Shown here piece after piece: positions 4,070-23,852 of a stretch of 64,000 nucleotides of DNA. How positions within the stretch are numbered: position 1 is the first letter of the stretch; the number at the start of each line of letters is the position of its first letter. The stretch comes from Schleiferiaceae bacterium. Its GTDB lineage: Bacteria; Bacteroidota; Bacteroidia; Flavobacteriales; Schleiferiaceae. The notes under the pieces were generated by a model that was not told the origin of the DNA, did no database searches, and saw only the letters and a program-made list of their open reading frames with translations. Both the position numbers and the translations under genes were made by a program. The stretch lies in contig JAOMWM010000002.1 of NCBI GenBank assembly GCA_028357285.1, positions 62,001 to 126,000 of the forward strand, read 5' to 3'.

Positions 4070-5326
4070 ATGGCGTTGTTATTAAGCATCCACTCAGATA
4101 TTATGATCTTCAGAATATTCTTCACCCTCGGGTTCGTGCTCGCCATCGACCTTTACGCGTACCAAGCGTTTAAAACCGTCTTCCGTAGCAGCGCCACACC
4201 CTATGTCTATTGGAGTATTACGGTCGCCTATATCATATTCTCTATCGTAATGGCGACTGTAATGACTAGTGGGAAAGTCGACTATAAATACCTAAGTCTT
4301 CTTATGGGGGTCTCTGTATTGCTCGCTGTACCTAAACTCATCGCAATCGGCCCGCTGCTTATCGAAGATGTGGTCCGATTAGGCCAATTTATTTTCCGTG
4401 GTGTAACCACTCAGCCCACGGTATTGCCAGAGCGCAGAGCCTTTATTTCGAAATTGGCGCTTGGACTTGCTGCCATCCCTTTCTTAGGCATTATTGACGG
4501 GATTTGGAAAGGACGTTACCGCTATCGAGTCATTTCGCACACCCTCGAATACGAGGACCTACCAGATGCATTCGATGGCTTTACCATCGCCCAGATTTCA
4601 GACATCCACAGCGGTTCATTCGACAATACAGAAAAGGTGCAATACGGCGTCGACATGGTCACAGAACTAGGAGCCGATTGCATTGTGTTCACCGGCGACA
4701 TGGTCAACAACACGGCCAGTGAAGCGGAACCATGGATCCCTGTTTTCCAACGCTTAAAGGCTAAATCCGGTATATTTTCAATCTTAGGCAATCACGATTA
4801 TGGTGATTATTGGCGGTTTCCAACGCCAGAAGCGAAAGTCGCCAACATGGATAGATTGAAAGAAATCCATGCAGAAATGGGCATGGATCTTCTGCTCAAC
4901 GACAGCCGATATTTCGAGAGAAACGGCGCAAAATTATACCTTGCGGGAGTTGAAAACTGGGGTTTACCTCCGTTTCCGCAATACGGAGATATAAACACTG
5001 CATTAGAACAAATCCCTGAAGATGCGTTCACTGTGCTTTTGAGCCACGACCCGTCTCATTTTGACGCTGAAGTGAAGCAACACCCCAACAAAATTCACTT
5101 AACGTTAAGCGGTCATACGCACGGAATGCAGTTTGGGATTGAAATTCCTGGATGGATCAAATGGTCGCCTGTAAAATTCAAATATCCAAAGTGGGCGGGA
5201 CTATATCCTGAACAAGATGGGAGAATACTGCATGTAAACCGCGGATTTGGGTTTTTAGCCTTTCCAGGGCGTGTAGGCATGTGGCCTGAAATCACGCACA
5301 TTACCTTGAAAAAGAAGGTCGTTTAG
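4070..5326 (+). CDS. Membrane-anchored metallophosphoesterase (YkuE/YaeI-like); true start may be ATG at 4103
   Basis: N-terminal TM segments; QISDIHSGSF, FTGDMVNN, GNHDYGDY, LSGHTHGMQ metallophosphoesterase motifs. Confidence 0.88.
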   Translation: MALLLSIHSDIMIFRIFFTLGFVLAIDLYAYQAFKTVFRSSATPYVYWSITVAYIIFSIVMATVMTSGKVDYKYLSLLMGVSVLLAVPKLIAIGPLLIEDVVRLGQFIFRGVTTQPTVLPERRAFISKLALGLAAIPFLGIIDGIWKGRYRYRVISHTLEYEDLPDAFDGFTIAQISDIHSGSFDNTEKVQYGVDMVTELGADCIVFTGDMVNNTASEAEPWIPVFQRLKAKSGIFSILGNHDYGDYWRFPTPEAKVANMDRLKEIHAEMGMDLLLNDSRYFERNGAKLYLAGVENWGLPPFPQYGDINTALEQIPEDAFTVLLSHDPSHFDAEVKQHPNKIHLTLSGHTHGMQFGIEIPGWIKWSPVKFKYPKWAGLYPEQDGRILHVNRGFGFLAFPGRVGMWPEITHITLKKKVV

Positions 5327-7302
5327 AATCGGTCCTTGTAAAGCTTCGACATGAAGTAAATGTGTGGTAAGCTAATGGCGCTGAGGAACACTAAAAAATA
5401 GCTCGACCAAGCCAATAATGAGCTCTTGTCAAATCTAAACACCAATAGAAAGAGCGCGACAGCACCTATGGTAAACGGCAAGGCTTTCATCCACATTTCG
5501 GCATTCGTCCATTTGTGTGACAATTTTAAGTGGCTCCAACCCGACAGACTGTGTTGTAAAACAAAGTAAATTCCAAATGCCGTAGCCAGCGGTAAGTAAG
5601 CCGTCAGACTTAGCGTCACCATGGCAACCACCCAAGGAATGGAGCGGAACCAGAAGCCCATAAAAAGTCCGAGTGACAGCGCCATTCTGTAAACCATGTT
5701 CATGAATTCCGTGGACCATGTTACTTTACCAATACCCATGACTTCAAGCACTGTGTTCACTTCAATCGAATGGGGTATAAGTATCAGCGCCAATAGTAAA
5801 GTCCCCCATAAAAACGACAGACCAATACTAGGAAAGCCCCATTCTCGTAGGTCTGTTTCTCCAAAATGCCATGCACTGTAAATCAAAAAGGCAAGTAGTC
5901 CTGTTACAGGACTCGCCGCCCAGAATAAAACAACCATCAGCATAATAAAGCAGTAACGCAAAATAAATTTCGGTAACCGTTCCTGATTCGCATGGCTATA
6001 ACCGTCCAGTGCTCCATGTGGAATACCGTATAAGAATAACAAGAAAACGAGTACCGCTTGTAACCCGTAAGAAACGGAGCTTGGCAATAAAGCTTCAGCA
6101 GCTAAGGCAAGTACGGCGAATAAAATGGGAGCCCAGCGCGAAGGCTTTGCCACTACAATCGCCACGAATGATGCCGCTAACGCCCATAAAAATTTCATGA
6201 TGGGTAGACGGAAAAACATGCTCAATTCCCATTTAAAGGAAGACTTCTCATCTAAGAACTGAAAGACTTTATTGGCTTTCTGAGTCGCGAATAACGTTTC
6301 AAAGATCTCCTTGCCCCAATGCGGTTTGTGTTTTAAGATGTGTAGCAACAAGTGATCATAGAAATTGAAGCGGTCCATATTACTCTTTGGCAGCCGCAAC
6401 CATGACGAATCTTTGCGCTCTTGGGCGATACTTTCCGCGAGTTCTTTTGCATGCTCAAACATGCTTTTAAAGGCATAACCGGTTGTAGCCTTTACTCTTC
6501 CGGCACGCGCACCTGTTGAAACGATGCGTGCATCTTGATCTTTAACCTCAGCATATTGTGTCATCGGGATTACACCGCGCTCCTCGTGCAGTATCTCAAA
6601 GGACAACCCTCTTGAGAGCAGGTAGTTTCTAAGGTGATTGCTGGCCAATTCATGAGGTAATTGTTCGCTACCGAATCGTGTCATTTCAACCAGCGCTTCC
6701 TTAGCGTCCGTTGGGAGAACATACATGAATTGAGTAAAGTCATTCTGTGGAATACCAAAATCCATCAGCGTCATTTGATTCGGTGTCCAGTAGTCTTCCT
6801 GCAGTTTCACCCGCCAACCCACGAAACTTTGTAATACTAATGGCCCCATCGGCTCCTTAATGATGGGTGGTCTGCTGTCAAATAATTGCTGAACCTCCCA
6901 AGAATGACTCCCGCTAGAAACAACAATACTTTCCTGCTCTCCCTTTAGTCCATCTACAGCACCCCGTATCCATTTAACGTTATCATAGGATTGTGCTATA
7001 CTTTTAACCTTATTATATAGCGCAATACTTTCAACCATATAATAATGTTGATCCTCAAGTGACTCTAAACCATCAACCGTATCAATTGTATCCCACTGAT
7101 GGAACATAACATCTTTAAGCTGTGTGCGTATTTCATGTTTCGCATCTGCCCAAAAACAGTACGTTTTATCGTTTTTTAATTTTGCGTCGGGCTCCAAAAC
7201 AAGAACGTTTAGCGAACGGAGTAAATTCTTTCGCTCCAATTCAAGCAAAAGCAATCCGTTGGCTGCACCCATTCCTAGAAAACCTATATCGTAACGCTCC
7301 AT
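5323..7302 (-). CDS. Fusion protein: N-terminal lycopene beta-cyclase (CrtY-type, ~aa 1-375) and C-terminal Brp/Blh-type beta-carotene 15,15'-dioxygenase (~aa 385-659)
   Basis: CrtY part: GFLGMGAANG dinucleotide fold, NDKTYCFW, TLMDFGIPQ..FMYVLPT..ALVEMT, GVIPMT, TGYAFKSM. Blh part: multi-TM, GIPHGALDGYSH, SAWHFGETD, IYFVLQHS, SLPHIYF. Single open frame in the track. Confidence 0.88.
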   Translation of the reverse strand: MERYDIGFLGMGAANGLLLLELERKNLLRSLNVLVLEPDAKLKNDKTYCFWADAKHEIRTQLKDVMFHQWDTIDTVDGLESLEDQHYYMVESIALYNKVKSIAQSYDNVKWIRGAVDGLKGEQESIVVSSGSHSWEVQQLFDSRPPIIKEPMGPLVLQSFVGWRVKLQEDYWTPNQMTLMDFGIPQNDFTQFMYVLPTDAKEALVEMTRFGSEQLPHELASNHLRNYLLSRGLSFEILHEERGVIPMTQYAEVKDQDARIVSTGARAGRVKATTGYAFKSMFEHAKELAESIAQERKDSSWLRLPKSNMDRFNFYDHLLLHILKHKPHWGKEIFETLFATQKANKVFQFLDEKSSFKWELSMFFRLPIMKFLWALAASFVAIVVAKPSRWAPILFAVLALAAEALLPSSVSYGLQAVLVFLLFLYGIPHGALDGYSHANQERLPKFILRYCFIMLMVVLFWAASPVTGLLAFLIYSAWHFGETDLREWGFPSIGLSFLWGTLLLALILIPHSIEVNTVLEVMGIGKVTWSTEFMNMVYRMALSLGLFMGFWFRSIPWVVAMVTLSLTAYLPLATAFGIYFVLQHSLSGWSHLKLSHKWTNAEMWMKALPFTIGAVALFLLVFRFDKSSLLAWSSYFLVFLSAISLPHIYFMSKLYKDRF

Positions 7303-7510: not shown

Positions 7511-8254
7511 ATGTCATTATTTTTAGACGGATCTATGGGATTCGATCCGAACGATTACGTATCGTTCACATTCTTCGCCGGTTACATGGCGATGTTAGCC
7601 GCTTCGGTATTCTTCTTCTTCGAAAGAAGTAGAGTTGCAGACGAGTGGAAAACTTCAATGCTCGTTAGTGGGCTTATTACTGGTATTGCAGCAGTGCACT
7701 ACTACTACATGCGTGATTTCTACGCTGCCGGTAATGGAAGTCCAGTTGTTCTACGTTATGTAGACTGGACCTTAACTGTTCCACTTATGTGTGTTGAGTT
7801 CTATTTGATCACCAAGAAAGCTGGTGGTACGAAGTCAATCTTGTACAAACTGATCTTAGCTTCAGTTGCGATGTTAGTTACCGGTTACATCGGTGAGGCA
7901 TTTTACGCAAACGATGCTGTTTCATGGGTTTGGGGTGCTATTTCTGGTGCTGCTTACTTCTACATCGTATGGATGGTATGGAAAGGAGACGTTGCGAAAT
8001 TGGCAAACAACGCTGGTGGTGCAGTAGCAAAAGCAAACGGAGCTTTGGCTAAATTTGTTATCATCGGTTGGGGTATCTACCCTATCGGTTACATCTTAGG
8101 TACAGCTGGTGGATTCTTCGGAATGGACCTCGGTATCGCGGCAAACGAAGAAGTACTAAACTTGTGCTACAACCTTGCTGATGCAATCAACAAAATTGGA
8201 TTCGGTCTTGTAATCTATTCTCTAGCAATAAGCTCAGAGACAGAAGCGGCTTAA
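7511..8254 (+). CDS. Proteorhodopsin, predicted green-absorbing outward proton pump
   Basis: Seven TM; RYVDWTLTVPLMCVEFYLI (D85, T89, M93, E96, equivalent to D97/T101/L105/E108 of the reference green proteorhodopsin), H63 in VHYYYMR, retinal Lys K228 in NLADAINKIGFGL. Confidence 0.97.
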   Translation: MSLFLDGSMGFDPNDYVSFTFFAGYMAMLAASVFFFFERSRVADEWKTSMLVSGLITGIAAVHYYYMRDFYAAGNGSPVVLRYVDWTLTVPLMCVEFYLITKKAGGTKSILYKLILASVAMLVTGYIGEAFYANDAVSWVWGAISGAAYFYIVWMVWKGDVAKLANNAGGAVAKANGALAKFVIIGWGIYPIGYILGTAGGFFGMDLGIAANEEVLNLCYNLADAINKIGFGLVIYSLAISSETEAA

Positions 8255-8407: not shown

Positions 8408-10282
8408 ATGAGATCTAAGCTTCTAATTCTAATTCTTTTCATCGCTTCAAACGCTTTCGGTCAACCCACTGGCATGCATTCGTACGCTATTGACCTTACT
8501 GAAGTAGTAGATGACCGCGTCAAAGTTACTGTTGATGCCAAATTGATTCAATGGTCCAATTCTAAACAAAACATTTATAATTTTCATTTCCCGGCCACTA
8601 TTCCAGGCACTTATGCCACGCTTGACTACGGCAGGTTTATTCAAAATTTCCAAGCTTATGACGCCTATGGAACAAAGCTCAAAGTAAAAAAAAAGGGAAA
8701 CACTTTTAGGATTTACGGCCAACCGGAAAGTCTTGAATACTGGGCTGATGATACCTTCGATGCACGAATACGCAAGAACAAAGTTTTTGAACCTGCCGGT
8801 ACTAACAATCAAGAGCATGCAAATTTTCTCCTAAACGCAGCCGGTTACTTTGGTTTCTTTGAAGGACAAGAAGAATTACCCGTATCCCTCGAAATCACTA
8901 AAAGTCCTAGTCTATATGGTCTAAGTGCCATGGATAGTTACAGTTATGGTAATACACAGAATTTTTATGCTCGTAATTACCATCACTTCTTAGATTCCCC
9001 AGTTATGGTCAGTAAACCGGACACCACTTCCTTTAAGCTGGGCGGTGCTAAGGTTACCATAGGGGTATTTACAGAAAATGGGAGATCGCTGTCGCAAGAA
9101 ATTTACAAGCAAGTAGAAACGAGTATGAAGGCTATTGAGGCCTTTTTAGAAGGCGAGCTACCCGTAGAAAATTATGCCTTTATTTTTTACATCAAAGATC
9201 ATACAGAGTTCGAAAGTCTATTCAGCGGGCAGGAAATTAAAATAGGCACCATTTTTAAAGCCATTCGTAAACTAGCAGGCAAAGGCTTTGGGGCACTCGA
9301 ACATGGCAATAGCTCCGTATACTATTTACCCGATTTCGGAGGAACAACAGTCCTTGATGGAATGGCGGACGTTTGTATCCATGAATTCTTCCACATACTC
9401 ACTCCGCTTGGACTGCACAGTGAAGAAATAGGAAACTTCAATTATATCAATCCGGAAATGAGTCAACATTTGTGGCTCTATGAAGGTATTACTGAATATT
9501 TCGCTGGTATTAGCCAACTTAAAGGCAGCGTGTTAGATGAAGAAACGTATGTGCGGAGCTTACTTCGAGGAAAAATCCGTGCGGCGGACCGATACCCAAC
9601 TAAAAAAATGTCATTCACTGAAATGAGTGAAAACGTTTTAAAAAAGCCCTACAAAAAACAGTACGCCCAGGTGTATCAACGCGGAGCACTTATGGCCGCC
9701 TTGCTTGATATACGCATTATGGAATTAACACAAGGACAAAAAGACTTACACGATATCATACTTACCCTTCGAGATACTTACGGTCCAGAAAATAGCTTTA
9801 AGGATGAAACCATCATCAGTGAATTCGTTGCTTTAGTTCATCCAGATCTTCAACAATTCTTTGACGACTATGTCACTGGGCGAGAAGAGCTACCTACTCG
9901 AGCGTATCTAAAAAAGGTTGGTATCGATTATAATCGTCGATATGAAGGTGCCGTCGTCATGGATCCCCTTCGCGATAATGGGTATAAAATAAGAGGGATT
10001 CGTTCTGTAGACTACATCGAGGTAAGAAAGGTATCAAAAGAAAATCCCTACCAACTTCAAGAAGGAGACCGAATCGAGCGTTACAGTGCGGAACTAGAAA
10101 ATAAATACGGTGGGCTTGAAGAGGGAACTTCTATGATCCTCAAAGTAAATCGGGAAGATTCATCATTCACCATTCCCTATAAGGTGAAATATCAGACAGG
10201 TTCTAAGAAGCATTTTATTCGCTTCCAAAGAACCCCAACCCCTGAGCAATTAGCTTTGAGAAAGTATTGGTTTGAGAATTAA
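8408..10282 (+). CDS. Secreted M61-family (glycyl aminopeptidase-like) metallopeptidase
   Basis: Signal peptide MRSKLLILILFIASNAFGQ; CIHEFFHILTPLGLHSEEI zinc motif and LYEGITEYF; C-terminal PDZ-like region. Confidence 0.82.
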   Translation: MRSKLLILILFIASNAFGQPTGMHSYAIDLTEVVDDRVKVTVDAKLIQWSNSKQNIYNFHFPATIPGTYATLDYGRFIQNFQAYDAYGTKLKVKKKGNTFRIYGQPESLEYWADDTFDARIRKNKVFEPAGTNNQEHANFLLNAAGYFGFFEGQEELPVSLEITKSPSLYGLSAMDSYSYGNTQNFYARNYHHFLDSPVMVSKPDTTSFKLGGAKVTIGVFTENGRSLSQEIYKQVETSMKAIEAFLEGELPVENYAFIFYIKDHTEFESLFSGQEIKIGTIFKAIRKLAGKGFGALEHGNSSVYYLPDFGGTTVLDGMADVCIHEFFHILTPLGLHSEEIGNFNYINPEMSQHLWLYEGITEYFAGISQLKGSVLDEETYVRSLLRGKIRAADRYPTKKMSFTEMSENVLKKPYKKQYAQVYQRGALMAALLDIRIMELTQGQKDLHDIILTLRDTYGPENSFKDETIISEFVALVHPDLQQFFDDYVTGREELPTRAYLKKVGIDYNRRYEGAVVMDPLRDNGYKIRGIRSVDYIEVRKVSKENPYQLQEGDRIERYSAELENKYGGLEEGTSMILKVNREDSSFTIPYKVKYQTGSKKHFIRFQRTPTPEQLALRKYWFEN

Positions 10283-10368: not shown

Positions 10369-13080
10369 TTAATGCGCTATAATTAGTTGCTCTGTAAATC
10401 TATTCGAAGTTGAAGCCGCAGTTACATGATAAATTCCATTAGGCAACGATTGAATATTTAAACTAATCTTTGAGCCCTCATACATGCGCTTTTCGCGAGT
10501 CCAAAGCTTACCTGTAGTATCGTAAATGTATATGTCAAGAGGCGTCCCCGAAAGCCAAGCACCGTCGATGAACAGTTCGTCGTTCGCTGGATTAGGATAC
10601 AACATGATTGGTCTCGACAGATCTTGCTCTGAAAGTCCAATTCCCTGAACAAATTCGAACCAATTTAAATTGAACTCGGAACCCACATCAAGTCGAAGCT
10701 TATAATCGCCTTGAGATAGAACACCGCCAGGCTGATTAGTTGTTTGCCATGTTTGCCAACCTCCAGTTGCGCCAAGTGAAATCGAGGGGAAACTCGTTAC
10801 ATAATTACCCAACGTATCCATAAAAATGAACTGCATATTGACTCCTGACTGTGAAGAATGCCTGTAATCCACACTGTAAGTAGCACTATTTAAAACTTTG
10901 ACATCGTAAATGAGGTAATCACCAGCTCCCAAATAACCTATGTTTTGACCACCGCCTATATCCGTGGTATTCTCTAACGAGATACCGTCCATACTGGAAT
11001 ATGCTTCCGCTTCAATTTTACCCGGTATGACATGCACCGTAGGCAAGGTGTTTTCAACCAACTCTTGACTAAATGACTGAACGTTGGTTCCATCTTTTGC
11101 TTTTAGCGTCGTTCCAGCGTAGGATATTTTTATTTCATCTAGGAAAGTAAGCGCCTGCCCAACCCCAATAAGTACATTACGTGAATTCGATAAACTTTTA
11201 GTTATGGAAGTCACTGTCGCTGGCACTCCATTCACTGTTACATAATAAGATGCAGCGAGACCAAGATTGGCAGTATCTAGAGGTTTATTCGTTTGCACCT
11301 CAATCGTGGTATTATCGTAGGTCACCCCATGTACATAATCAGCCGTGATGGTGTTCGTTGCACCTGTGGCTACGAACTCAAAACTAGTGACATTAAACCC
11401 GCCTTGATTCGCTACAAAACGCATCTTCTTATCGGTGGAAGAAAGAACAACATTAGGAATAGTCTTAGTAGACATAACCGTCCAACTGCCTGTATTCGTA
11501 GCGTAATAGTTCGGTGTTAATCGCACACCATCCGCTTCGAAATAAAAATTTCCTCCCGTAGAACCGCTACAACCTTGTCTAACTTTAATAGTGTATACAC
11601 TGTCTTGGGGAATATTGACGCTGTAGCTCATCCAATCCTCAGTATCGACAAACCCTACCATATAACCATTACTGTTAACGGCATCAGTGAATTTCTCAAT
11701 ATCTACACCGTCATTTCTATACGTCCATCCAGAATTCCATGAGGGCGGTGGGTTAAGTTGGTACGACTCTGTATCGAAGTATGCGTCTCCTAATGGGCCC
11801 ATATCATATTCTGAGGCATGCACTACACCTGGTAAATCATGCGTTTTCCACGGGAGAGATGTGGGATCTTGAACTTGACGGAACATCGCGTCAATAACTC
11901 CTCTATTATACGTACAATTCTGAGCTTTCAAATCCGTCGTCAACTGCATAAGCGTTGCTGTGGCAGCAGCTACTGATGGAGCCGAACCATTACCGCTCCA
12001 GTAATCCAATAGATCTTGATAGCCAGCAGACTTCGTTATACTAAGGGGAGCGTTGATTGTTTCTATCTTTTTCAAAGGCCACCACGCCCATCCTACACCT
12101 TCTGCCTCAAATAAACTGATGAGCCCGGTATACCAAGCATTTGAATTTTCGCCGGATTCCCCAAACCAGATGGGTATGTTGTAGGTGTCTCTTAAATCTA
12201 ATCCGTACTGAATATCAGCAACACTATTCACAGGAGACCAGTATTTATGTGGAGAATACACCATATTATTATCCCACGGAGGGGTTAAACCTGTAAATGT
12301 ATTAGCGAACCAATTCCCCTCTATAAAGATCACATGATTCGTATCCACCGAACGGATACTATCGGTTATGTCCTCATACATTGATCTCAGTAGAGTTCCT
12401 CCAGGTAAGTTCCAGTTGGGCTCATTGATCAAATCATATCCAGCAATGGTTGTATCAGTAGCGTATCGCTCCGCAAGTTTTCGCCACAGTGAAGACGTCT
12501 TATTTCTGTTATGAACACTTTCCCATAGTGATGGCTTTGAAGGATCGTAATCACTAATCCCTTCGTCATAACCTTGTCCACCCGGTGCAGCATGTAAATC
12601 GAGTATGACATACATATCGTTTACTCGACACCATTTAACAACGGAATCAAGCAGGTAGAAACCTTTAGTCAGCCATGTGTTTTGTCCTAAGACAGGTTCG
12701 TCCTCAATCGGCAAAGTGAAAAGATTGTAGTGCATTGGAACACGGACCGTATTAAAACCCCAAGCGGCCATTGAATCTACATCGGCTTTGTTAAAGTGAT
12801 TTTCTAACCATGCATCATAGAAAGCATCCGTTGCTGTAACTCCGATAAGATCTTCGATCGTGTCTCTAATTTTATGCTGCGGACTTGCAAACGAAGCCGT
12901 CTGAAGCATGTAACCCTCTTGAACCATCCAACCACCGACACCCATCGATCGAATAAGCAGGGTGTCTCCATTACCATCTAAGATTACCTTACCTGCGGTC
13001 TGAACATATTGTCCTTTAAGTGGCGTTAATACACTTATGAAGCAAAACACCAAAAGCCCTGCCAATGAATTCTTTTTCAT
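10369..13080 (-). CDS. T9SS-secreted glycoside hydrolase family 5-like protein with two CBM6-like modules and a C-terminal sorting domain (ORF extends to 13107; likely start MKKNSLAG)
   Basis: GVGGWMVQEGYM, FNTVRVPMHYNLF, YDLINEPNW, WFGESGE; CBM6-like modules HASEYDMGPLGDAYFD... and PGKIEAEAYSSMDGISLENTTDIGGGQNIGY; CTD MLYPNPANDELFIDG...LPNGIYHVTA. Confidence 0.82.
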   Translation of the reverse strand: MKKNSLAGLLVFCFISVLTPLKGQYVQTAGKVILDGNGDTLLIRSMGVGGWMVQEGYMLQTASFASPQHKIRDTIEDLIGVTATDAFYDAWLENHFNKADVDSMAAWGFNTVRVPMHYNLFTLPIEDEPVLGQNTWLTKGFYLLDSVVKWCRVNDMYVILDLHAAPGGQGYDEGISDYDPSKPSLWESVHNRNKTSSLWRKLAERYATDTTIAGYDLINEPNWNLPGGTLLRSMYEDITDSIRSVDTNHVIFIEGNWFANTFTGLTPPWDNNMVYSPHKYWSPVNSVADIQYGLDLRDTYNIPIWFGESGENSNAWYTGLISLFEAEGVGWAWWPLKKIETINAPLSITKSAGYQDLLDYWSGNGSAPSVAAATATLMQLTTDLKAQNCTYNRGVIDAMFRQVQDPTSLPWKTHDLPGVVHASEYDMGPLGDAYFDTESYQLNPPPSWNSGWTYRNDGVDIEKFTDAVNSNGYMVGFVDTEDWMSYSVNIPQDSVYTIKVRQGCSGSTGGNFYFEADGVRLTPNYYATNTGSWTVMSTKTIPNVVLSSTDKKMRFVANQGGFNVTSFEFVATGATNTITADYVHGVTYDNTTIEVQTNKPLDTANLGLAASYYVTVNGVPATVTSITKSLSNSRNVLIGVGQALTFLDEIKISYAGTTLKAKDGTNVQSFSQELVENTLPTVHVIPGKIEAEAYSSMDGISLENTTDIGGGQNIGYLGAGDYLIYDVKVLNSATYSVDYRHSSQSGVNMQFIFMDTLGNYVTSFPSISLGATGGWQTWQTTNQPGGVLSQGDYKLRLDVGSEFNLNWFEFVQGIGLSEQDLSRPIMLYPNPANDELFIDGAWLSGTPLDIYIYDTTGKLWTREKRMYEGSKISLNIQSLPNGIYHVTAASTSNRFTEQLIIAH

Positions 13081-13145
13081 CTGATTTAATGATTTAAGAG
13101 GTATCAAGTTCTATTAAAATCTCAATAATCTACGATGAAACCGGT

Positions 13146-13161
13146 GGACAATAACTGGACA
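13146..13161. promoter_or_regulatory. Direct repeat GGACA-N6-GGACA upstream of the GH5 gene; putative PUL operator
   Basis: ccggtGGACAataactGGACAcggttaaagg, 11-bp period; same arrangement as 23853-23868. Confidence 0.5.
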
Positions 13162-13164
13162 CGG

Positions 13165-15981
13165 TTAAAGGCCCTGAATATATTCGTCCAGAGCATCTTC
13201 TTTATTAAGCGCTATTTTCTTTTTTAATCGGTATTTCGCTTTTTCAATCGCAGCCGGGCTCACATTTAGAACCGTAGCGATCTCTTTATTACTCATTTTC
13301 TGACGTATTAAATAACAAAGGCGAACCTCCCCTTTGGTGAGCTTAGGGAACTGCTTTATTAAACGTCTTGAAAATTCTTCGTGTAACTCTCGGTAATTCC
13401 GTTCAAAATGATCCCAATAGTTTTCGCTCTGTAATTCCCTATTAATCTCACGAGTCATCGATTTTAGAAATGTCAATACTTCATCTGAGCGGTTTTTTTG
13501 TTTGCTTTCACTTTCCAATCGCTCTTTAAAGGAATGCAGAAGCTCGAGTCTGCTTGATGTTTTTAATAATTGGAAACTTAATTCGGTTTTTTGCTGGTTT
13601 GACTTTACCTCAAGCTCCGATGCTTTTGCTTTAAGTAACTCTCTTTCTGTTTCTACCAATTTAAGGCGGGTTGACCTGTACTTTCTCTCTTGATAAAAGG
13701 AAACAGCCGTGCCTATTAGAAGTATAATAATGACAAAAATTAATATTCTGAACCAGGATCGCTGGATAAGAAACGACTTTATTCTGAAGGAAATTAACAC
13801 TGTTTTTTCAACCGCATTAGCTCCAAGAGACCGCACCTCCAATAGATACTTCCCTGGCGGCAACTCTTGCAAGTCAATAGTGCGGGTTCCATAAGGCAAC
13901 TCCACATAGTAATCTCCGAGCTCCTTTATTCTATATGCATTGCTTATACCATTCCGGAGCGTATTGCTGGCCAATTCAAAATTAAAACGTACAGATTTAG
14001 TTCCTGCCGCGAATACTACCGTCCGCGCTGAAGAAATGCCGTCCTTAATAATGGGAATAGGCTCTGGAAGATTATCTGCAAATACTTCCGTAATAAGCAT
14101 TGGAGGAATCGCTGCTGCAGAGGAGTCTTCAGTTGATATTTCAACTACCCCTTGAGTACCTCCTAACAACAGGCGTTCCCCATTCCATAACAACGCTTTT
14201 CTATTCGAGAGACCTACTTGAAGTTCATCAAGCTCTTTGAACACTTCATAAGACCATTCCAATTGGTCATTTAATTTAATCTCTAAAAGACCTACACTTG
14301 TCGCTGCATATACCCTTCCTTTTCTTTCGCTAATGGAATAGCAATTCACAAACGTCTCCTTCCCAATAATTGTATCAACGACTCGACCCTCATCGATCAC
14401 AATTATCCCACTGCCTTCAGTGCCTACCAGTTTATAATCTAAATAGGTCTCTATATCTAAGACTGAATTTTTTATAGGTATACTTTGAATGGAGCCTTGT
14501 CTTGAAAGGGTATAAATGCCTTGAAATTCTGTACCTACCCAAAGTAAGTCACCATCGAACTCTAAATCCATTATGTTTCGACCTACACGCCATGGAGTAT
14601 CAAATGGCGATGTGATTTCCGCCCCATCCCAGAATTGTAAACCGTAAAGCGTACCAATCCATAAACTATCGCCCCAGGTTTTCTCCAACGACCAAATATT
14701 TGAATTTTCGAGTCCACGCGACGATTGAGAGTAGGCTAAGAATTGTTCTTTAATGGTACCCGATGTATCCATCACAAATAATCCCTGACCCAGACTGCCT
14801 ATCCATAATTCGTCTTGATAAAACTCAAGACTTGTAACCACGTCGGGTAAATAAGGGTTATCAAATGTAGTGGGCTGCCAGCCTGCCGGCGATTCTCGGT
14901 AGCGAACGAGACCATCTCCATCAAAACCAACCCACAAATCGTTATCGCTCACCATGCTAATGGCACTTTGAATACTCGATGCGACGAATTTTTTAGGCTT
15001 CGGAAGTAACGATACCGCACTGTTGTTTACCGGAAATTGCGCGACACCGCCATTATAGGTGCCTAACCAGAGGGCATCATACACTTCATATATTCCATAA
15101 AATTGATCCGTAATAATTCCTGAGGTTGGATCTTGTTTCGTAAAATGTTGAATAGCACTACCGTTCCATTGGTATACGCCATATCCATCCGTGGAAATCC
15201 AAACATTGCCCTCGTAAAAAATGGCATCACGCTGGGTTCCCTTTGTCGGAATCGCTAATTCGTAAAACACATCGCCTGACAGTTCAAAAACGCCAGTTCC
15301 TTCAACAGAAAAAATGACTCGCCCGCCAGATACATCCACCGATTTTCGAAAAGAACTCACGCTTTTATTTGCCTCAAGCGCATAAACAGACTTTTGCGAC
15401 TTTAAGTAATACAGCAGGTGATCACCGCTCGTCGCAATCCACAAAGTATCACCTTGATCTTCAAAATCGAATATAAATTTTAAGTCCTCGGCATATTCGT
15501 CAGAAACAAAACGCTTCCATTTTTCACTGCCCGGTCTTAGTTGGAATATTCCGGAACCAGAACTTCCTGCCCATATAGTTCCTTCCGAATCTTGATGAAG
15601 GGAGATTATTGATATCTCTCTTGGAAGTTGCGGAATCTTACTGTCTGGAATTGGCCGAAGACTTTCAAGATCAACTCCCATTATGCCACCTAGCTGCAGA
15701 CCAATAAGCAGTACTGAGTCTTGAGTGACCAATAAGCTTTGGACATTATTTGATCTACGAAAATCTGTAGAATCTAGAAAAGGAAAAGAGCGTGCTCGAC
15801 CTTCATTGTATTTATATAAACCGTCACGCGTTCCTATCCAAACAAAACCCCAGTCGTCCTGCACTATGGAATACACTGTGGGATTGTTGAGTCCCTCAGC
15901 AGCGCCTATATGACGTATGGACTGGCCGCTTGCAAAAAGTGAACAGGCAACAAAAAGAACGATATATAAGAAACTTCGCAT
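13165..15981 (-). CDS. Membrane-spanning PUL regulator: periplasmic beta-propeller plus Y_Y_Y-like sensor, one TM, coiled coil, C-terminal LuxR-type HTH
   Basis: Propeller repeats (WVFWIGTRDGLYKYN-type, DNDLWVGFDGDGLVRY, DSLWIGTLYGLQFW); TM WFRILIFVIIILLIGTAVSFY; HTH LTKGEVRLCYLIRQKMSNKEIATVLNVSPAAIEKAKYRLKKK; no histidine kinase motifs seen. Confidence 0.85.
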   Translation of the reverse strand: MRSFLYIVLFVACSLFASGQSIRHIGAAEGLNNPTVYSIVQDDWGFVWIGTRDGLYKYNEGRARSFPFLDSTDFRRSNNVQSLLVTQDSVLLIGLQLGGIMGVDLESLRPIPDSKIPQLPREISIISLHQDSEGTIWAGSSGSGIFQLRPGSEKWKRFVSDEYAEDLKFIFDFEDQGDTLWIATSGDHLLYYLKSQKSVYALEANKSVSSFRKSVDVSGGRVIFSVEGTGVFELSGDVFYELAIPTKGTQRDAIFYEGNVWISTDGYGVYQWNGSAIQHFTKQDPTSGIITDQFYGIYEVYDALWLGTYNGGVAQFPVNNSAVSLLPKPKKFVASSIQSAISMVSDNDLWVGFDGDGLVRYRESPAGWQPTTFDNPYLPDVVTSLEFYQDELWIGSLGQGLFVMDTSGTIKEQFLAYSQSSRGLENSNIWSLEKTWGDSLWIGTLYGLQFWDGAEITSPFDTPWRVGRNIMDLEFDGDLLWVGTEFQGIYTLSRQGSIQSIPIKNSVLDIETYLDYKLVGTEGSGIIVIDEGRVVDTIIGKETFVNCYSISERKGRVYAATSVGLLEIKLNDQLEWSYEVFKELDELQVGLSNRKALLWNGERLLLGGTQGVVEISTEDSSAAAIPPMLITEVFADNLPEPIPIIKDGISSARTVVFAAGTKSVRFNFELASNTLRNGISNAYRIKELGDYYVELPYGTRTIDLQELPPGKYLLEVRSLGANAVEKTVLISFRIKSFLIQRSWFRILIFVIIILLIGTAVSFYQERKYRSTRLKLVETERELLKAKASELEVKSNQQKTELSFQLLKTSSRLELLHSFKERLESESKQKNRSDEVLTFLKSMTREINRELQSENYWDHFERNYRELHEEFSRRLIKQFPKLTKGEVRLCYLIRQKMSNKEIATVLNVSPAAIEKAKYRLKKKIALNKEDALDEYIQGL

Positions 15982-15998
15982 ACAGCAATTTACAAATG

Positions 15999-16026
15999 AA
16001 AAAGGGACCCGTTACCGAGTCCCTTT
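15999..16026 (-). terminator. Terminator of the minus-strand PUL operon end (16055 gene)
   Basis: AAAGGGAC...GTCCCTTT stem; reads on the minus strand into TTTTTC. Confidence 0.65.
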
Positions 16027-16054
16027 ATCACTTACTTACTAACTAAATTAAATT

Positions 16055-17077
16055 TTAGTTGAGTGAGATACGAATTACACTATCCGTTTCCTCGTTTTGT
16101 AAACGCACGATGTACATACCGCGTGGCAATGTTGCAACATCAAGGCGTGTATTCGCCTCAAAGCTTTCCTCCATTACTTTGGCACCTGTTACGTTATATA
16201 CAGCTACAGAAGTAGTAGTTCCTGTGGTATTTTCAATGAATAACACATCAGAAGCTGGGTTCGGCTTTACGGTAAAGCTAGCAGCAACCTCTTCAACTCC
16301 AATGTTAGAGTAACCACCACACTCTTCCCAAGCATGTATCATCAAAGTAGTATCAGACGTTCCAACTGTAAGAACGCGATCAGTGAAACCTGCAGAATTA
16401 GTGTTGATACAAGTAGTGTCGCTCATGGATGCAGGAACGAAGTTTTCTTGAATCGCCCAATCATCAGCAGTAAACTTGTAGCGGTAGTCTCCTGGCGTTA
16501 ATGACATAACAACAGTGTACACACCATCTCCATCTGTATCCGTCATCGGATAAGCAGTACCATTCCACGCAACCGGGAATGTACCAGAAAGATATGCATT
16601 TGTAAATGCTGGACTGTTAGAGCGATCAGATTGGAAAGTCACGTCAACAGGTGTTAATGGCGTTGGACAAACTGTATCTGTTGCACAGGTACCAAAACAA
16701 AACATTAACGTGGTATCCTGAGTAAACGATGGTAAAATACGATCATCATAATTACTCGGGTCAGAACACGGTAATCCGTTTAACGATTCCTTTGTACCCC
16801 AATCTGCATCATTTGCTGGACTGTTAAGGAAGATGAAATTACCTCCACCAGTTCCATCTAAAGTATCAGTTCCTTCATAAACACCGTTACCATCTGGATC
16901 GGTTAATTGAACTGCGTTTGCACCACCAATGACACCACCGCCTAAGAATAGACCGTTAGCACCTACTGTGATGTTAGCTGTATTGACTTTAAAAGTCACT
17001 ACATGTGTTGTTTGTGCGAAACCCAACATAGGTAGGGCAAGCATTAATAAAGCGTAGATTTTTTTCATGTTAAGCAT
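16055..17077 (-). CDS. Small T9SS-secreted protein with two tandem beta-domains, putative glycan-binding
   Basis: Signal peptide; DPDGNGVYEGTDTL and DTDGDGVYTVVMSLTPGDYRYKF domains; CTD VKPNPASDVLFIEN...LPRGMYIVRLQ. Confidence 0.7.
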   Translation of the reverse strand: MLNMKKIYALLMLALPMLGFAQTTHVVTFKVNTANITVGANGLFLGGGVIGGANAVQLTDPDGNGVYEGTDTLDGTGGGNFIFLNSPANDADWGTKESLNGLPCSDPSNYDDRILPSFTQDTTLMFCFGTCATDTVCPTPLTPVDVTFQSDRSNSPAFTNAYLSGTFPVAWNGTAYPMTDTDGDGVYTVVMSLTPGDYRYKFTADDWAIQENFVPASMSDTTCINTNSAGFTDRVLTVGTSDTTLMIHAWEECGGYSNIGVEEVAASFTVKPNPASDVLFIENTTGTTTSVAVYNVTGAKVMEESFEANTRLDVATLPRGMYIVRLQNEETDSVIRISLN

Positions 17078-17093
17078 TATTTATAGTTAGTAA

Positions 17094-18254
17094 TTATTGA
17101 AATACTCTTATGTAATCCACCAGCATGTACTGAGGGAATGTTGTTGAAGGGCCAACTGGACCTGGCCAGTTTCCTTCTACGGCAATGTTTAGTATGAAGA
17201 AGAACTTCTCTTTAAACGCCCCTAAGTTGGAGATGTTCAAAGTGTGAAATAAAATATCATCACGAAACCACTTGATGGAACCACTATCCCAAACTATGGA
17301 GAATACATGAAATTCGTCATTATACTTTCCAGAAGTAAGGCTGTTATTTCCGCCATATTCTGCATGACTACCATTATTCGACCAATGTGCTGTACCATAA
17401 ACAGTGCGATCATTATAACCGTCACCTCCGATCAACTCCATAATATCAATCTCACCACAGCTGGGCCAGCCATCCGTAGAAAAGTTATCGCCCAACATCC
17501 AGATCGCAGGCCATATACCCGGACCGTATGGCACTTTTGCGCGAATATCTATTCTCCCGTACTTAAATGACTGCTTTCCTTGAGTGGTAATTCGAGCCGA
17601 AGTATAGGGCGCGCCTAAATGCGTTTCCTGTTTAGCCGTTATGCGTAAATATCCCTGATCTAGCTCTGCATTGCGATTACCACCACGGTAGTATTGACTT
17701 TCATTATTTCCCCAACCTGAAGCACCGGTCTCGTAATTCCAATCCGATAAATTTAAATCTGTACCTGAAAAATCTTCTTCCCAGACTAATGTTTTTCCGG
17801 AATAGGAGTTCGGAGTAGTGTAACCTATATCTTCAATAGGTGGTGCACCGTCGTCGTTACGTAAAGTGATTGACGCATAAGGCTCCGGTATCGTTACATT
17901 CACAGCATTACTGAAAGAAATCCAAAATGTCTCGGTCTCCTCAGACTCCTCATCTCCATAAATAGTGAGTGGAATGGACGCCATTGTTGCGCCTTTCGGA
18001 ATTTCTAAGGTGCCTTGTGCCAATTCAAAATCATCACCAGATTCTGCATTAACGTCGCTTGTAGTATAATCGAGCGTTATAGTCTTTGCCGCAGGTGCTG
18101 AAAGAAAAACGTCAAAGTCAATCGTTTTAGTCGCGTTACCCTCGTCTATTTCAATGCTGTACGCAGTGAGTTGAGGAACCGAAGGGGCTTCGCAACCAAC
18201 GGTTGCAAGGCCTACTACGATTGTTATTGCTGTATTTCTTAGGGTCTGAATCAT
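17094..18254 (-). CDS. GH16 endo-beta-1,3-glucanase (laminarinase-like) lipoprotein with N-terminal Calx-beta-like domain
   Basis: Lipobox VGLATVGC; catalytic motif GEIDIMELIGG; WPAIWMLG. Confidence 0.92.
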   Translation of the reverse strand: MIQTLRNTAITIVVGLATVGCEAPSVPQLTAYSIEIDEGNATKTIDFDVFLSAPAAKTITLDYTTSDVNAESGDDFELAQGTLEIPKGATMASIPLTIYGDEESEETETFWISFSNAVNVTIPEPYASITLRNDDGAPPIEDIGYTTPNSYSGKTLVWEEDFSGTDLNLSDWNYETGASGWGNNESQYYRGGNRNAELDQGYLRITAKQETHLGAPYTSARITTQGKQSFKYGRIDIRAKVPYGPGIWPAIWMLGDNFSTDGWPSCGEIDIMELIGGDGYNDRTVYGTAHWSNNGSHAEYGGNNSLTSGKYNDEFHVFSIVWDSGSIKWFRDDILFHTLNISNLGAFKEKFFFILNIAVEGNWPGPVGPSTTFPQYMLVDYIRVFQ

Positions 18255-18260
18255 CTATTA

Positions 18261-19130
18261 TTATTCAGAATAAAGCGTGAAACGCCAAAGGCCACCGCCA
18301 AAGTCACATTCAATTTCCATGTAACGATCACCAGCAACATCAGTCATCGATAAAATATCATACGTCACAGACGTTACTGGAGAAGATACCTCACCGCCGT
18401 TTGCTGCCTTAGGTATCCCGATAAAGGCACCTAAACCGTTTACTTTTAATTGATCTGGAAGCGGTCCATTACCCGGTATAATTTCAAACGAATGCGTTCC
18501 ACTCGCCCATGCATCATGAGGAGAAGTCAAAGCCGTCTCAGGAGTACATCCCTCAGTAGCAACACCGAAATATGTTTCAGCATAAACATCACCGTTAGCA
18601 TCGTATTCCATCGTGCCGTCCTCACTGAAAATCCACTCGTCATTGAATAAACATGGACGATCCGTAGGGCCTGAAGCAGGGATTGCCCACCACGTAGTGT
18701 TGCCATCAGGACCAACCCATAAAGAGCCCGCCTGTGGAGCTAATTTCCATGTACGAGATGTACATTCTGTTAACCACTCCATGGCACCTATACAAGGCAT
18801 CGGGCCATCTATCAAAATTTCAATCTGACCTGTTGCAGATGCACTACCCCCTTGATTGAAGACGGTGTGTGAAACATCATAAGTACCCATAGCACCGATG
18901 AATACTTCAATACTTTCACCGGTGTAGGTACCAACACCGTCGATTTCCCATTGATATAGGAATGGATCACCGGTAGAGGTTGAAACCAATTGTACAGTAT
19001 TACTGTCAATGAAGGTTACGGAGTAATCTGCTTGAGGGAGTGCCCCCAATTCTGTATGTCCCGCCTCGCTTGGTTCACAAGCGATAAAACCGAGAGCTAC
19101 AAGACTAAATAAAGCTAATTTCTTTAACAT
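18261..19130 (-). CDS. PKD-domain lipoprotein, putative surface glycan-binding protein
   Basis: Lipobox LGFIAC; YQWEIDGVGTYTGESIEVFIGAMGTYDVSHTV; position between GH16 and susD. Confidence 0.8.
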   Translation of the reverse strand: MLKKLALFSLVALGFIACEPSEAGHTELGALPQADYSVTFIDSNTVQLVSTSTGDPFLYQWEIDGVGTYTGESIEVFIGAMGTYDVSHTVFNQGGSASATGQIEILIDGPMPCIGAMEWLTECTSRTWKLAPQAGSLWVGPDGNTTWWAIPASGPTDRPCLFNDEWIFSEDGTMEYDANGDVYAETYFGVATEGCTPETALTSPHDAWASGTHSFEIIPGNGPLPDQLKVNGLGAFIGIPKAANGGEVSSPVTSVTYDILSMTDVAGDRYMEIECDFGGGLWRFTLYSE

Positions 19131-19142
19131 CGTTATCGATTT

Positions 19143-20657
19143 TTAGTATCCTGGATTCTGAGTTAATACATCTGGTGCAGCATCAATTTCCTGCTGCGGG
19201 ATTGGAAGGTAAGTATGCGTAGACGCAACAAAACCTTGATCACCCAATACTTCCGTGGCTTTACCGGTTCTGAGAAGATCAAAGAAACGGTGTCCTTCCG
19301 TCGCTAATTCCATGCGACGTTCTGTATAAATATCTTCAAGTAGTTGGTTGCCTGTGCTCGTTAAAGCGGCAAGACCAACGCGGCTTCTTACCTGGTTTAA
19401 ATACGTTCGAGCCGTACCTTCTGAACCACCGCTTCTAACGATTCCCTCAGCAGCCATTAATAAAACGTCTGCATAGCGAATTTCGCGAATGTTGTTCCCC
19501 CAGTTAAGAGCAGGATCACCGTCTGGCGCAACATTTGATGCGATCGGTGCATATTTGCGCATCCAGAACCCAGTGTTTTGATACCCAGGCGTGTATTCTG
19601 CACCTGGTAATGCATCTGCATCGATAATGGTGTAGCCATAACGTGGATCACCGTCCATCGCAGCCTCTAATTCAGTTGACACTGGGCAGAAGCCCCATCC
19701 TGTTGCATACGTAGGGCCGTTGTAGTCACGCATTCCAATGAACTGGACACCAACGTTTCCTTCTCCACCGCCCCAGCCGAACGAGCCCCAGTCAGAAGCT
19801 GAGTTTTCACTGTAGGTTATTTCAAAAACACTCTCCGAAGACCACTCCCCTTCTGCAGACCAAATGTCAGAGAAACTTGAAAGAAGTGAATACTCTCCTG
19901 ATTGAATTACTGACTCACATAGAGAAGCCACTTGTGCCATGCTAGATGCGTCGTCTTCGAAAAGTAAAACGCGTGCTAGAAGTGCTTGTGCAGCACCTTT
20001 AGTAACACGGCCTAATTGGTTGGAACCAACAGAGCTCGGTAAATCTGTAATTGCTGCTTCAAGATCAGAAACAATAAATGGATAAATTTGATCAGGACCT
20101 ACCTGCTCCACAGTGTAATATTCTGATGCTCCTAGCGTATGATCAATTAAAGGGATATTCCCGAACAGACGAACTAGATCAAAGTAAAACTTCGCACGGA
20201 GGAATTTCGCCTCTGCCTTTGTGCGCGTTCTAAATGCTTCACTCGCATCTTCGATTTCGTCAATTTTTTCAAGGAATAAATTAGCGCGGTAAATTCCTTT
20301 ATACCCTTTTCTCCAAAAACCACGCTGTGGCCCTAGGTTCGGGGTTAGTGTAAAGTTATTGTAGGCAACCCATGAAGGTTGATCGGAAGCATCACTACCT
20401 CCTGCATATGTATCGTCAGAAGCAACATTCTGTAAGAATCTAAACATGGTGAAACCATATTGATCATTCCACTGTAGTACATCGTAAATACTTACCAATG
20501 CTTCGAAAGCTTGCTCCTCAGTCTGGTAGTAGTTCACCTCTAATACACGGCCAACGGGTCTAGTATTCAAAAAGTCTTTTGAACACGAGCCCAGAATCAT
20601 AGTAAGCGCTAGAAGCAAGCTTACCCAGATACCTTTTGTTTGGTTTAACTTATTCAT
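19143..20657 (-). CDS. susD: RagB/SusD-family outer membrane nutrient-binding lipoprotein
   Basis: Lipobox LGSCSKDFL; LRAKFYFDLVRLFGNIPLI; ADVLLMAAEG; YTERRMELATEGHRFFDLLR. Confidence 0.96.
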   Translation of the reverse strand: MNKLNQTKGIWVSLLLALTMILGSCSKDFLNTRPVGRVLEVNYYQTEEQAFEALVSIYDVLQWNDQYGFTMFRFLQNVASDDTYAGGSDASDQPSWVAYNNFTLTPNLGPQRGFWRKGYKGIYRANLFLEKIDEIEDASEAFRTRTKAEAKFLRAKFYFDLVRLFGNIPLIDHTLGASEYYTVEQVGPDQIYPFIVSDLEAAITDLPSSVGSNQLGRVTKGAAQALLARVLLFEDDASSMAQVASLCESVIQSGEYSLLSSFSDIWSAEGEWSSESVFEITYSENSASDWGSFGWGGGEGNVGVQFIGMRDYNGPTYATGWGFCPVSTELEAAMDGDPRYGYTIIDADALPGAEYTPGYQNTGFWMRKYAPIASNVAPDGDPALNWGNNIREIRYADVLLMAAEGIVRSGGSEGTARTYLNQVRSRVGLAALTSTGNQLLEDIYTERRMELATEGHRFFDLLRTGKATEVLGDQGFVASTHTYLPIPQQEIDAAPDVLTQNPGY

Positions 20658-20664
20658 GTTTTAT

Positions 20665-23600
20665 TTATTTAAATGTGATGTTCAATCCTATTGTATTCAC
20701 TCGTGCTTGCGGGTAGATACCTCTGTCTATACCGAAACCAGCACCGATTTCCGGATCAAATCCACTGTATTTAGTGAATGTAAGAAGGTTCGTACCGCTG
20801 TAGTATATACGCATTTTACGAAGACCTATACGCTCGGCAGTTGGACCCGTTATATTGTATCCTATCTGTAACGACTTCAATCTAAAGAAGCTACCGTCTT
20901 CAACATAGAAATCTGAACTACGTGCAAAGTTTCTATTTACGTCGTTGAACGTAAGTCTTGGATATTCATTCGTAGAACCTTCTCCTGTCCAGCGATCGAT
21001 TGCCTTAGCAGGCATGTTCGAGGTTGGTAAGTCGTAACGGCGTGTAGCATTGTAAATCTGATTTCCAAATACTCCTTGACCGAAAATATTTACGTCCCAA
21101 TTTTTGTAGCGCATATCGATCGTTAAACCAGCAGTCCAATCCGGTGTAGGATTACCAATCATAGTTCTATCATCCGCGTCAATTACACCGTCACCGTTGA
21201 CATCAACAAAACGGAAATCACCAGCTTGTGCCATTGGCTGCAGAGTATCGCCATCGCCACTCGTGTAACTGAATACATCATCCATATTTTGGAAGATTCC
21301 GTCCGTTTGATATCCGTAGAGGTAACCGATAGGTAAACCTTCTGTAATACGAGTGATTTCGATACCCTGTGGTCCCCATCCGGCACCTGTAAGGTAACCG
21401 GCATCATTACCGATCAAGATTACTTCGTTTTTGATAAAACTTGCATTTCCGCTAACACCGAAAGAGAAATCTTTACTGTAGCTGCGGTCGTATCCGAATT
21501 CAATATCAACACCCTGGTTCAACATTGAACCAACGTTCGCTGTAGAAGGGTCATTACCAATGTAATCAGGTAATGGTGGACGCGTTTTCATACCATTGGT
21601 ACGACGACTAAATACATCTACTCCTAATACAAGGTAATCATAGGCACGAATTTCTGTACCAACGTTTAATTGAGCAACACTCTCCCAACGTAAATCAGGA
21701 TTCGCTACTTGTGCTGGTGTCGTACCATTAACAAGTACTTCGTTTGCACCAAATGTGTACGAACGACCACCGATGATGGTAGAAGCATACTCTAAAGAAC
21801 CTGCTGCGTCACTACCATTCAAACCGTAACCGGCCTTAAACTTCAACGTGTTTACATTATCGTAAATCCACCAATTTTCTTTGTGAACATTCCATCCAGC
21901 AGATAACGAAGGGAAATATCCCCAACGGTTGTTCTGTCCAAAACGAGAAGAAGCATCGGCACGAAGAATTGCAGTGGCCACATATTTACCATCGTAGTCA
22001 TAGTTTACACGACCGAAGTATGATTCGATTGCATAACGCTCCCACTTACCACCGTATACTTGCTCTGAAATTTCGTTACGGGCATAGTCGATGGTAGCGT
22101 CTTGAAAGTCTTGTGTAGGTACATCACGCTTATTTCCGCCGATATAACGACCGTTTACTTCTTGAGCACTGTGACCCACCAAATAGTTGAGGTTGTGCTT
22201 ACCTATGCTTTGAGTGTAGGTCAAGGTATTGTCCCATATCCATGTAAAACCTCTATTGAAACTAGAGTAGACATTATTAGTGTCTAGAAGGTTTGTCGCA
22301 TTCAGATAGTGTGATGGAGTCATTCCATCATTTCCCCAAAATGCAAGGTCAATACCCATGCTAGAACGCGCTTTCAATCCAGGTAGGATTTCAAATTCAG
22401 CGTAGGTATTATTGACGATTTTATCTGCCCAACCTACATTATTAATCATCGAATAAGCAGCCACAGGATTTACTACCTCAGATGTTACACGATTTGAAAT
22501 ACCGAAAATTCCATTCTCATCGCGAACTAAATTTCCGCGAAGAACACCTCCTGAAGAATAGGGAGTTCCTGACAATACTGTAGGATCTGTTTCGTAAAGT
22601 GGTGTAATTGGGTCAATGTTTAATGCACGACCTAAAGGCGAGCCCCATTCTGTATTTTCTGCAACACCATTGCTTTGATTGTGTGTATAAGCTACATTCC
22701 AGCCTACTGTCAAACGGTCATTGACTTTCGTTACAGTATTTAGGCGAGCCGCCAATCTTTCATAGTACGACTTGCCTTCCGCGACAATACCTTCTTGATT
22801 GAAGGAGCTAATAGAGGCATAGTACGAACCACGGTCTGTTCCGCCAGCGATACTAATATCGCTGTTCTGAATCACTGCGTTTCTGTTAAATACAGCGTCT
22901 TGCCAATCTGTACCTGTACCGTACATGCTTGGATTGCTGTAAGGTAAAGTTTGGCCTGCAGCACCGGCCATTTCATTTTGCAATGTAGCATACTCAGTAG
23001 CATTCAATACTGGTGCTTTCTTCCATGGATTCTGCAGACCCGTGTATGAAGTAACCTTCACTTCCATACCTCGAGCTTTCGATCCGTTTTTCGTTGTAAT
23101 GATAATAACACCATTCGCGCCACGAGCACCATAGATAGCGGCAGAAGCTGCATCCTTAAGTACTTCTATAGTTTCAATGTCGTTAGGGTTTAAATAATCT
23201 ATACCGCCGCCAATAACAACACCGTCAATCACGAAGAGTGGATCTGAGCCGTTTATTGATGAAGTACCACGTACACGAATCACCGCGCCAGCACCTGGCT
23301 GACCAGAACTCTGAACGACACTAACTCCTGATGTTCTACCTTGAAGCGCAGTTTCAACGCGAGGCAAAACAATATCCTCTAAGTCTTCCGACTTAACACT
23401 AGATATCGCTCCGGTAACATTTGACTTCTTTTGAGTTCCAAACCCAACAACAACTACTTCATCTAAGGTAGAAGCGGCTTTGTCGTAGACTAGTTTTATG
23501 TTAATACTTTTTGAAGCACCCAGAGACACCTCTGTGGTAACATATCCCACGAAGGAAACTGTTGCCGTTGAGCCCTCTTTGGCGTCAAGCGTCCATCTAC

Positions 23601-23772
23601 CTTCCATGTCTGTCATTGCAGATTTCTGACCGGCCTTCACTACGGCACCCGGCAGCGGTGAGTTGTCAGTAGCATCGACTACCGTTCCCCTGTACTGAGC
23701 ACTTACCTGCGCCGAAAATCCTAAGAAAAGAAGGACTAGAAAGGACGCGATGTAATGTTGTCGTTTGTTCAT
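20665..23772 (-). CDS. susC: SusC-type TonB-dependent receptor (ORF track extends to 23814)
   Basis: Carboxypeptidase-like N-domain, VVVGFGTQKKSNVTGAISSV, plug DPLFVIDGVV..LNPNDIETIEVLKDAASAAIYGARGANGVIIITTK. Confidence 0.97.
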   Translation of the reverse strand: MNKRQHYIASFLVLLFLGFSAQVSAQYRGTVVDATDNSPLPGAVVKAGQKSAMTDMEGRWTLDAKEGSTATVSFVGYVTTEVSLGASKSINIKLVYDKAASTLDEVVVVGFGTQKKSNVTGAISSVKSEDLEDIVLPRVETALQGRTSGVSVVQSSGQPGAGAVIRVRGTSSINGSDPLFVIDGVVIGGGIDYLNPNDIETIEVLKDAASAAIYGARGANGVIIITTKNGSKARGMEVKVTSYTGLQNPWKKAPVLNATEYATLQNEMAGAAGQTLPYSNPSMYGTGTDWQDAVFNRNAVIQNSDISIAGGTDRGSYYASISSFNQEGIVAEGKSYYERLAARLNTVTKVNDRLTVGWNVAYTHNQSNGVAENTEWGSPLGRALNIDPITPLYETDPTVLSGTPYSSGGVLRGNLVRDENGIFGISNRVTSEVVNPVAAYSMINNVGWADKIVNNTYAEFEILPGLKARSSMGIDLAFWGNDGMTPSHYLNATNLLDTNNVYSSFNRGFTWIWDNTLTYTQSIGKHNLNYLVGHSAQEVNGRYIGGNKRDVPTQDFQDATIDYARNEISEQVYGGKWERYAIESYFGRVNYDYDGKYVATAILRADASSRFGQNNRWGYFPSLSAGWNVHKENWWIYDNVNTLKFKAGYGLNGSDAAGSLEYASTIIGGRSYTFGANEVLVNGTTPAQVANPDLRWESVAQLNVGTEIRAYDYLVLGVDVFSRRTNGMKTRPPLPDYIGNDPSTANVGSMLNQGVDIEFGYDRSYSKDFSFGVSGNASFIKNEVILIGNDAGYLTGAGWGPQGIEITRITEGLPIGYLYGYQTDGIFQNMDDVFSYTSGDGDTLQPMAQAGDFRFVDVNGDGVIDADDRTMIGNPTPDWTAGLTIDMRYKNWDVNIFGQGVFGNQIYNATRRYDLPTSNMPAKAIDRWTGEGSTNEYPRLTFNDVNRNFARSSDFYVEDGSFFRLKSLQIGYNITGPTAERIGLRKMRIYYSGTNLLTFTKYSGFDPEIGAGFGIDRGIYPQARVNTIGLNITFK

Positions 23773-23852
23773 TGTGTCTAGTTTTATTGATAAAGTGTAT
23801 TTTGTACACTGCAATGTGCTAATGAATTAGTCAAGGAACAACTTCTTAGCCC

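Follow-up and report, generated by a model that had tools for sequence, protein, structure and literature searches.

The window analysed here is a stretch of 64,000 nucleotides from a Schleiferiaceae bacterium (contig JAOMWM010000002.1, positions 62,001 to 126,000), whose source genome is a MAG of 1.67 Mb, 74% complete. It carries on its minus strand a single ORF with an ATG start, without internal stops or N, in which a CrtY-type lycopene cyclase domain is directly followed by a Brp/Blh-type dioxygenase domain (Table 1). The original prediction had described an uninterrupted CrtY-Blh frame of this length at this place and next to a rhodopsin gene, and coordinates, length, both domains and the adjacent proteorhodopsin gene were all confirmed. 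The boundary between the two halves had been placed at 6150-6190; this interval does overlap the junction, but the junction itself lies at about 6174-6073 (about aa 377-410). On the other side of the fusion, its order with the phosphoesterase gene is kept in most of the genus, and to our knowledge neither this phosphoesterase nor the M61 aminopeptidase-like protein has a link to carotenoids. Further along, positions 10369-23814 hold a likely beta-glucan utilisation locus with a CBM6-bearing GH5, a GH16, SusD, a SusC-like receptor, a propeller regulator and type 9 secretion tails.

Table 1. Features of the fusion locus, in positions of the window
Feature	Position	Strand	Description
CrtY-Blh fusion, putative lycopene beta-cyclase + beta-carotene 15,15'-dioxygenase	5323..7302	-	659 aa; Pfam, NCBIfam, genus relatives
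CrtY half, aa 1-380	6163..7302	-	GMGAAN aa 10-15 (dinucleotide-binding start), DKTYCFW aa 45-51, conserved E206 and T208
Junction, aa 381-410	6073..6162	-	hydrophobic, without long linker, least conserved part
Blh half, aa 411-659	5323..6072	-	multi-helix membrane domain; conserved H429, H479, H584, H647; stop included in positions
Proteorhodopsin	7511..8254	+	divergent to the fusion, 208-bp gap; D85, T89, E96, K228, M93 (tuning site), Gly142
Calcineurin-like phosphoesterase	4070..5326	+	convergent; 4-bp overlap with 3' end of the fusion
M61 aminopeptidase-like protein	8408..10282	+	far side of the rhodopsin gene

The N-terminal half is matched by the Pfam profile Lycopene_cycl (PF05834) over aa 5-370, with 154 bits for a cut-off of 23.4 (E 8e-45) and with positions 1-374 of the 380 of the profile covered. 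The C-terminal half is recognised by two models of the Brp/Blh family, namely the Pfam profile BCD (PF15461; aa 421-655, E 1e-22, 81.5 bits, cut-off 28) and the NCBIfam model TIGR03753 (109.9 bits, cut-off 95.25). On the other hand, the CrtY half stays below the cut-offs of the NCBIfam lycopene-cyclase models, with 68.6 of the required 215.2 bits for TIGR01789 and 117.7 of 209.5 for the subfamily model TIGR01790. Since these cut-offs are missed, this half is named CrtY-type after Pfam and not as a TIGR01789 equivalog.

Residues G10 and G12, the glycines of the dinucleotide-binding start, as well as E206 and T208 of the CrtY half are invariant across 15 aligned fusions, and E206 would be the acidic residue that lycopene cyclases conserve at their centre, with a catalytic role. 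In the Blh half, the four histidines pointed out in the original prediction, H429, H479, H584 and H647, are indeed all present, and they are kept in every covering row of an alignment of fused and stand-alone Bacteroidota Blh proteins. Both halves are under purifying selection: among near relatives, pN is about 0.04-0.09 versus a pS of about 0.56-0.84, that is, synonymous change is near saturation and amino-acid change is low. Constraint is weaker over the 30 residues of the junction (pN 0.11-0.23), and the gap between the two profiles measures 23-31 residues in 77 fused ORFs (duplicate fetches counted).

One of the two halves could nevertheless be catalytically dead or use another substrate, so that the protein would not be bifunctional in practice. 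The low NCBIfam scores of the CrtY half are compatible with such a loss, and so is the position of the last histidine. Indeed, H647 lies 63 residues past H584, whereas a review (PMC9227343) gives 21, 78, 188 and 192 as the four essential histidines of the 66A03 Blh, so that the last two histidines are spaced otherwise than reported, in a comparison made by the review's numbering. However, the stand-alone Bacteroidota Blh proteins share the same histidine set, the family landmarks and low pN/pS are kept in both halves, and no second copy of either the CrtY half or the Blh half was found in the source genome, all of which makes the loss of one activity improbable. The separate idea that the fused proteins have lost an active-site histidine as a trait of their own clade was dropped, since stand-alone Bacteroidota Blh proteins also mostly lack a histidine four residues past H584.

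The fusion occurs as a single open frame in 23 of the 25 genomes of the genus, at 48-97% identity, and the remaining two copies are cut by contig ends. The outcomes that would speak against the original prediction did not arise: the junction showed neither frameshift nor stop, and crtY and blh were not split into two genes throughout the close relatives. The named relatives in a close-relative scan are MAGs of Schleiferiaceae, Cryomorphaceae and other Flavobacteriales, and two further genera of the window's family (g15 and g17) carry the fusion too. Scans at the level of order, class and phylum, the latter two on drawn samples of genomes, revealed full-length fusions in 14 Bacteroidota families: beyond the window's own, these are one more family of Flavobacteriales, represented by a one-contig genome (G102), 11 more families of Bacteroidia and one family of another class. 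Single-ORF fusions were recorded in 30 further genomes of Bacteroidia and in three of another class. The search covered Bacteroidota together with plasmid records, and in the latter only cyclase halves but no full-length fusion were found. An origin of the frame by misassembly or frameshift, for which the incomplete state of the source MAG could be invoked, is exceedingly improbable, given that the same ORF recurs in the genus, in many families and in one-contig and near-complete genomes; the intact ORFs of relatives rule out an assembly artefact. The original prediction had also implied that the architecture is rare, crtY and blh being normally separate, and this part was not supported. Across 371 sampled Bacteroidia genomes, the source genome included, 29 of the 65 BCD genes lie in frames of at least 640 aa and 36 in shorter ones, which puts the fused share at about 45%, a rough ratio since some of the short genes are contig-cut or frameshifted. 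Collectively, these data show that the CrtY-Blh fusion is real, old and common among rhodopsin-bearing Bacteroidota.

A tree of the Blh sequences, with 78 rows, unites all 47 fused ones in a single clade with support of 100/99. This clade takes in just two unfused ones, from G002 and G678, and most unfused Blh genes are placed outside it. The CrtY tree gathers 45 of the 47 fused sequences into a single clade (SH-aLRT 99); the remaining two, both from family f66, are placed among stand-alone CrtY proteins from the family of the window. Furthermore, the fused genes of that family turn up at three separate places, which points to horizontal transfer. The simplest reading of the two trees would be one old fusion, a small number of later splits or another joining event, and horizontal transfer. 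An origin in Bacteroidota that happened once or very few times, with a spread that was partly horizontal, seems to us the best explanation of the distribution.

Rhodopsin is present in nearly all of the fusion genomes checked. In the window the two genes are adjacent and they share the same genome, as befits a rhodopsin-linked module, and rhodopsin is present in 25 of 25 genomes of the genus. Outside the family, rhodopsin was found in 33 of 34 fusion genomes, a raw count without the background rate of the class and with the unfused G886 left out. By position, 19 of these 34 have the rhodopsin gene directly beside the fusion and one has it at a distance of about 3 kb; in 12 it sits on a different contig or much farther off, and in two it is unplaced. 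In genome G034 (L062, 7767-11864), a rhodopsin gene stands on either side of the fusion and broken pieces of cyclase are nearby, an arrangement that suggests a duplicated rhodopsin-fusion unit. Several genomes of g17 and g5 carry rhodopsin without a match to the fusion or to its halves; these may rely on a distant Blh or on uptake of retinal. In the window's proteorhodopsin, Gly142 aligns opposite a phenylalanine of green proteorhodopsin. A conserved glycine, Gly156 in XR, is the main mark of the carotenoid-antenna site (PMC12308411), and our reading is that Gly142 would correspond to this position. A hydroxylated antenna would need an outside source, because CrtZ was not found in the source genome.

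As to the supply of carotenoids, the source genome carries crtI, crtB and idi together in a separate operon, which is also found in three relatives; neither crtZ nor a second lycopene cyclase was found at or with these genes. The CrtI of this operon (L053, 3546-5033) scores above the NCBIfam threshold of the model for bifunctional phytoene desaturase/3,4-desaturase (731.5 versus 640), and its product may therefore not be plain lycopene. Next to the operon (L053, 5058-6548) are genes for an ECF sigma factor and for a MerR regulator that has a B12-binding domain, and a photolyase gene is near, which suggests control by light. The only PF04116 match of the source genome was rejected as CrtZ, being a lipid desaturase (PF10520). 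Across the genus, only one of the 25 genomes, many of them incomplete, yielded a PF04116 protein of CrtZ size whose full match exceeds the cut-off, in a scan that is not fully sensitive, as it missed the CrtZ of G524.

On these grounds, the fusion is very probably a bifunctional lycopene-to-retinal enzyme that serves the rhodopsin branch. Both of its enzyme activities are inferred. It would act as one membrane-bound polypeptide, receiving lycopene made by the products of the separate crtI-crtB-idi operon. The CrtY half would close both ends of lycopene to give beta-carotene, and the Blh half would then cleave this at its central double bond into two molecules of retinal, the vitamin A aldehyde, which would become the chromophore of the rhodopsin whose gene lies across the 208-bp gap. 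Since no other user was found in most of these genomes, the beta-carotene made by the fusion would go mainly to retinal. The original prediction had proposed such a commitment of beta-carotene to retinal, and the gene context fits it.

What the fusion adds to two separate enzymes can be approached from the unfused genes. Many unfused crtY-blh pairs overlap, sharing either 4 bp or 11-14 bp, in another frame. In G886, a genome of another class, crtY and blh share the same frame with a single TGA between them (L100, 1465-3597) and are thus one stop codon short of a fusion. The step to fusion is therefore small, and its ancestor was probably such a crtY-blh gene pair, of the kind still overlapping by a few bases in other genomes. 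Translation of the overlapping pairs is already coupled, so that the fusion could do no more than fix a 1:1 ratio and a joint membrane insertion of the two enzymes, with beta-carotene released and shared. The overlapping pairs and the one-stop arrangement of G886 speak for this form of the bifunctional enzyme, to which we give an even chance, whereas the persistence of the fused state in at least 14 families hints at an advantage over the overlapping pairs.

Channelling would be a stricter version of the bifunctional enzyme: the cyclase half would hand beta-carotene over to the dioxygenase half, so that it never entered the membrane pool and nearly all of it became retinal. The short junction of near-constant length and the long joint inheritance of both halves seen in the trees are in favour of it, and so is the arrangement of the CrtZ-bearing fusion genomes. 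Indeed, 14 of 18 such genomes have a second lycopene cyclase beside CrtZ, of CrtYcd type in 13 and a stand-alone CrtY in one, as if the beta-carotene of the fusion were unavailable to CrtZ. Three genomes (G507, G649 and G517) have kept a stand-alone CrtY as well. However, in the other four CrtZ-bearing fusion genomes no second cyclase was found near CrtZ (G947, G959, G1037, and G757, where the sequence ends at the contig end). Furthermore, in a control set of eight fusion-less genomes of the window's family CrtZ also lies beside CrtYcd, and in some of these genomes crtY and blh overlap each other close to the rhodopsin gene. The two-cyclase layout as a result of fusion is weakened by these unfused relatives, and the use of separate cyclases for retinal and for xanthophylls therefore seems a wider habit of the group, of which the fusion would be the tightest form. 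Searches of solved structures with the full protein and with a fusion profile found no true relative of either half, and the AlphaFold model of the whole protein, made from 8 sequences, is too poor for use (mean pLDDT 49, pTM 0.31), so that geometry is uninformative on the mechanism. Channelling appears plausible, though less likely than not. We hold with equal caution the tentative picture in which beta-carotene would be a bound intermediate, one old fusion would have become a private retinal line for Bacteroidota rhodopsins and the second cyclase would feed the xanthophylls.

The bifunctional enzyme is of interest beyond this locus. Phototrophy by rhodopsin requires retinal, and the way in which bacterial lycopene is divided between this product and the protective carotenoids is an open question. 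With its last two steps joined in nature and in many genomes, the pathway also offers a ready test of channelling for a very hydrophobic intermediate within the membrane, and the fusion is a compact candidate for engineered production of retinal. The fusion also matters to annotation, since a survey with one Pfam profile for crtY and another for blh, as in PMC8386455, would score this gene twice. No published bacterial CrtY-Blh fusion was found in the literature, as judged from titles and abstracts, with subscription papers thinly covered, and from terms looked up in PMC10016063, PMC2889829, PMC9227343, PMC5877348 and PMC8386455. It is very likely that domain databases already contain the architecture.

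Compared with known systems, the CrtY half resembles the CrtY-type lycopene beta-cyclases (PF05834), with a nearly full profile above the Pfam cut-off, but it differs in missing the NCBIfam CrtY cut-offs and in carrying a dioxygenase at its C-terminus. Similarly, the Blh half passes the family cut-off of the Brp/Blh dioxygenases (TIGR03753), whose characterised member comes from the marine bacterium 66A03, but it is joined to a cyclase and its conserved histidines are spaced off the reported numbers. Haloarchaeal and Salinibacter-type genomes have crtYcd instead of crtY, together with blh, according to PMC5877348. The protist Thecamonas trahens has a four-domain CrtIBY-Blh protein, described in PMC10016063, in which Blh is likewise C-terminal to a lycopene cyclase within one protein, presumably for retinal; it is, however, a eukaryotic protein, its cyclase is of the CrtYc/d type and not CrtY, and CrtI and CrtB are fused to it as well. 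Where Bacteroidota with proteorhodopsin have crtY and blh as separate genes, these belong to the same enzyme families, correspond to the same pathway steps and are often adjacent to rhodopsin too, but they encode two polypeptides, often from genes that overlap by 4-14 bp.
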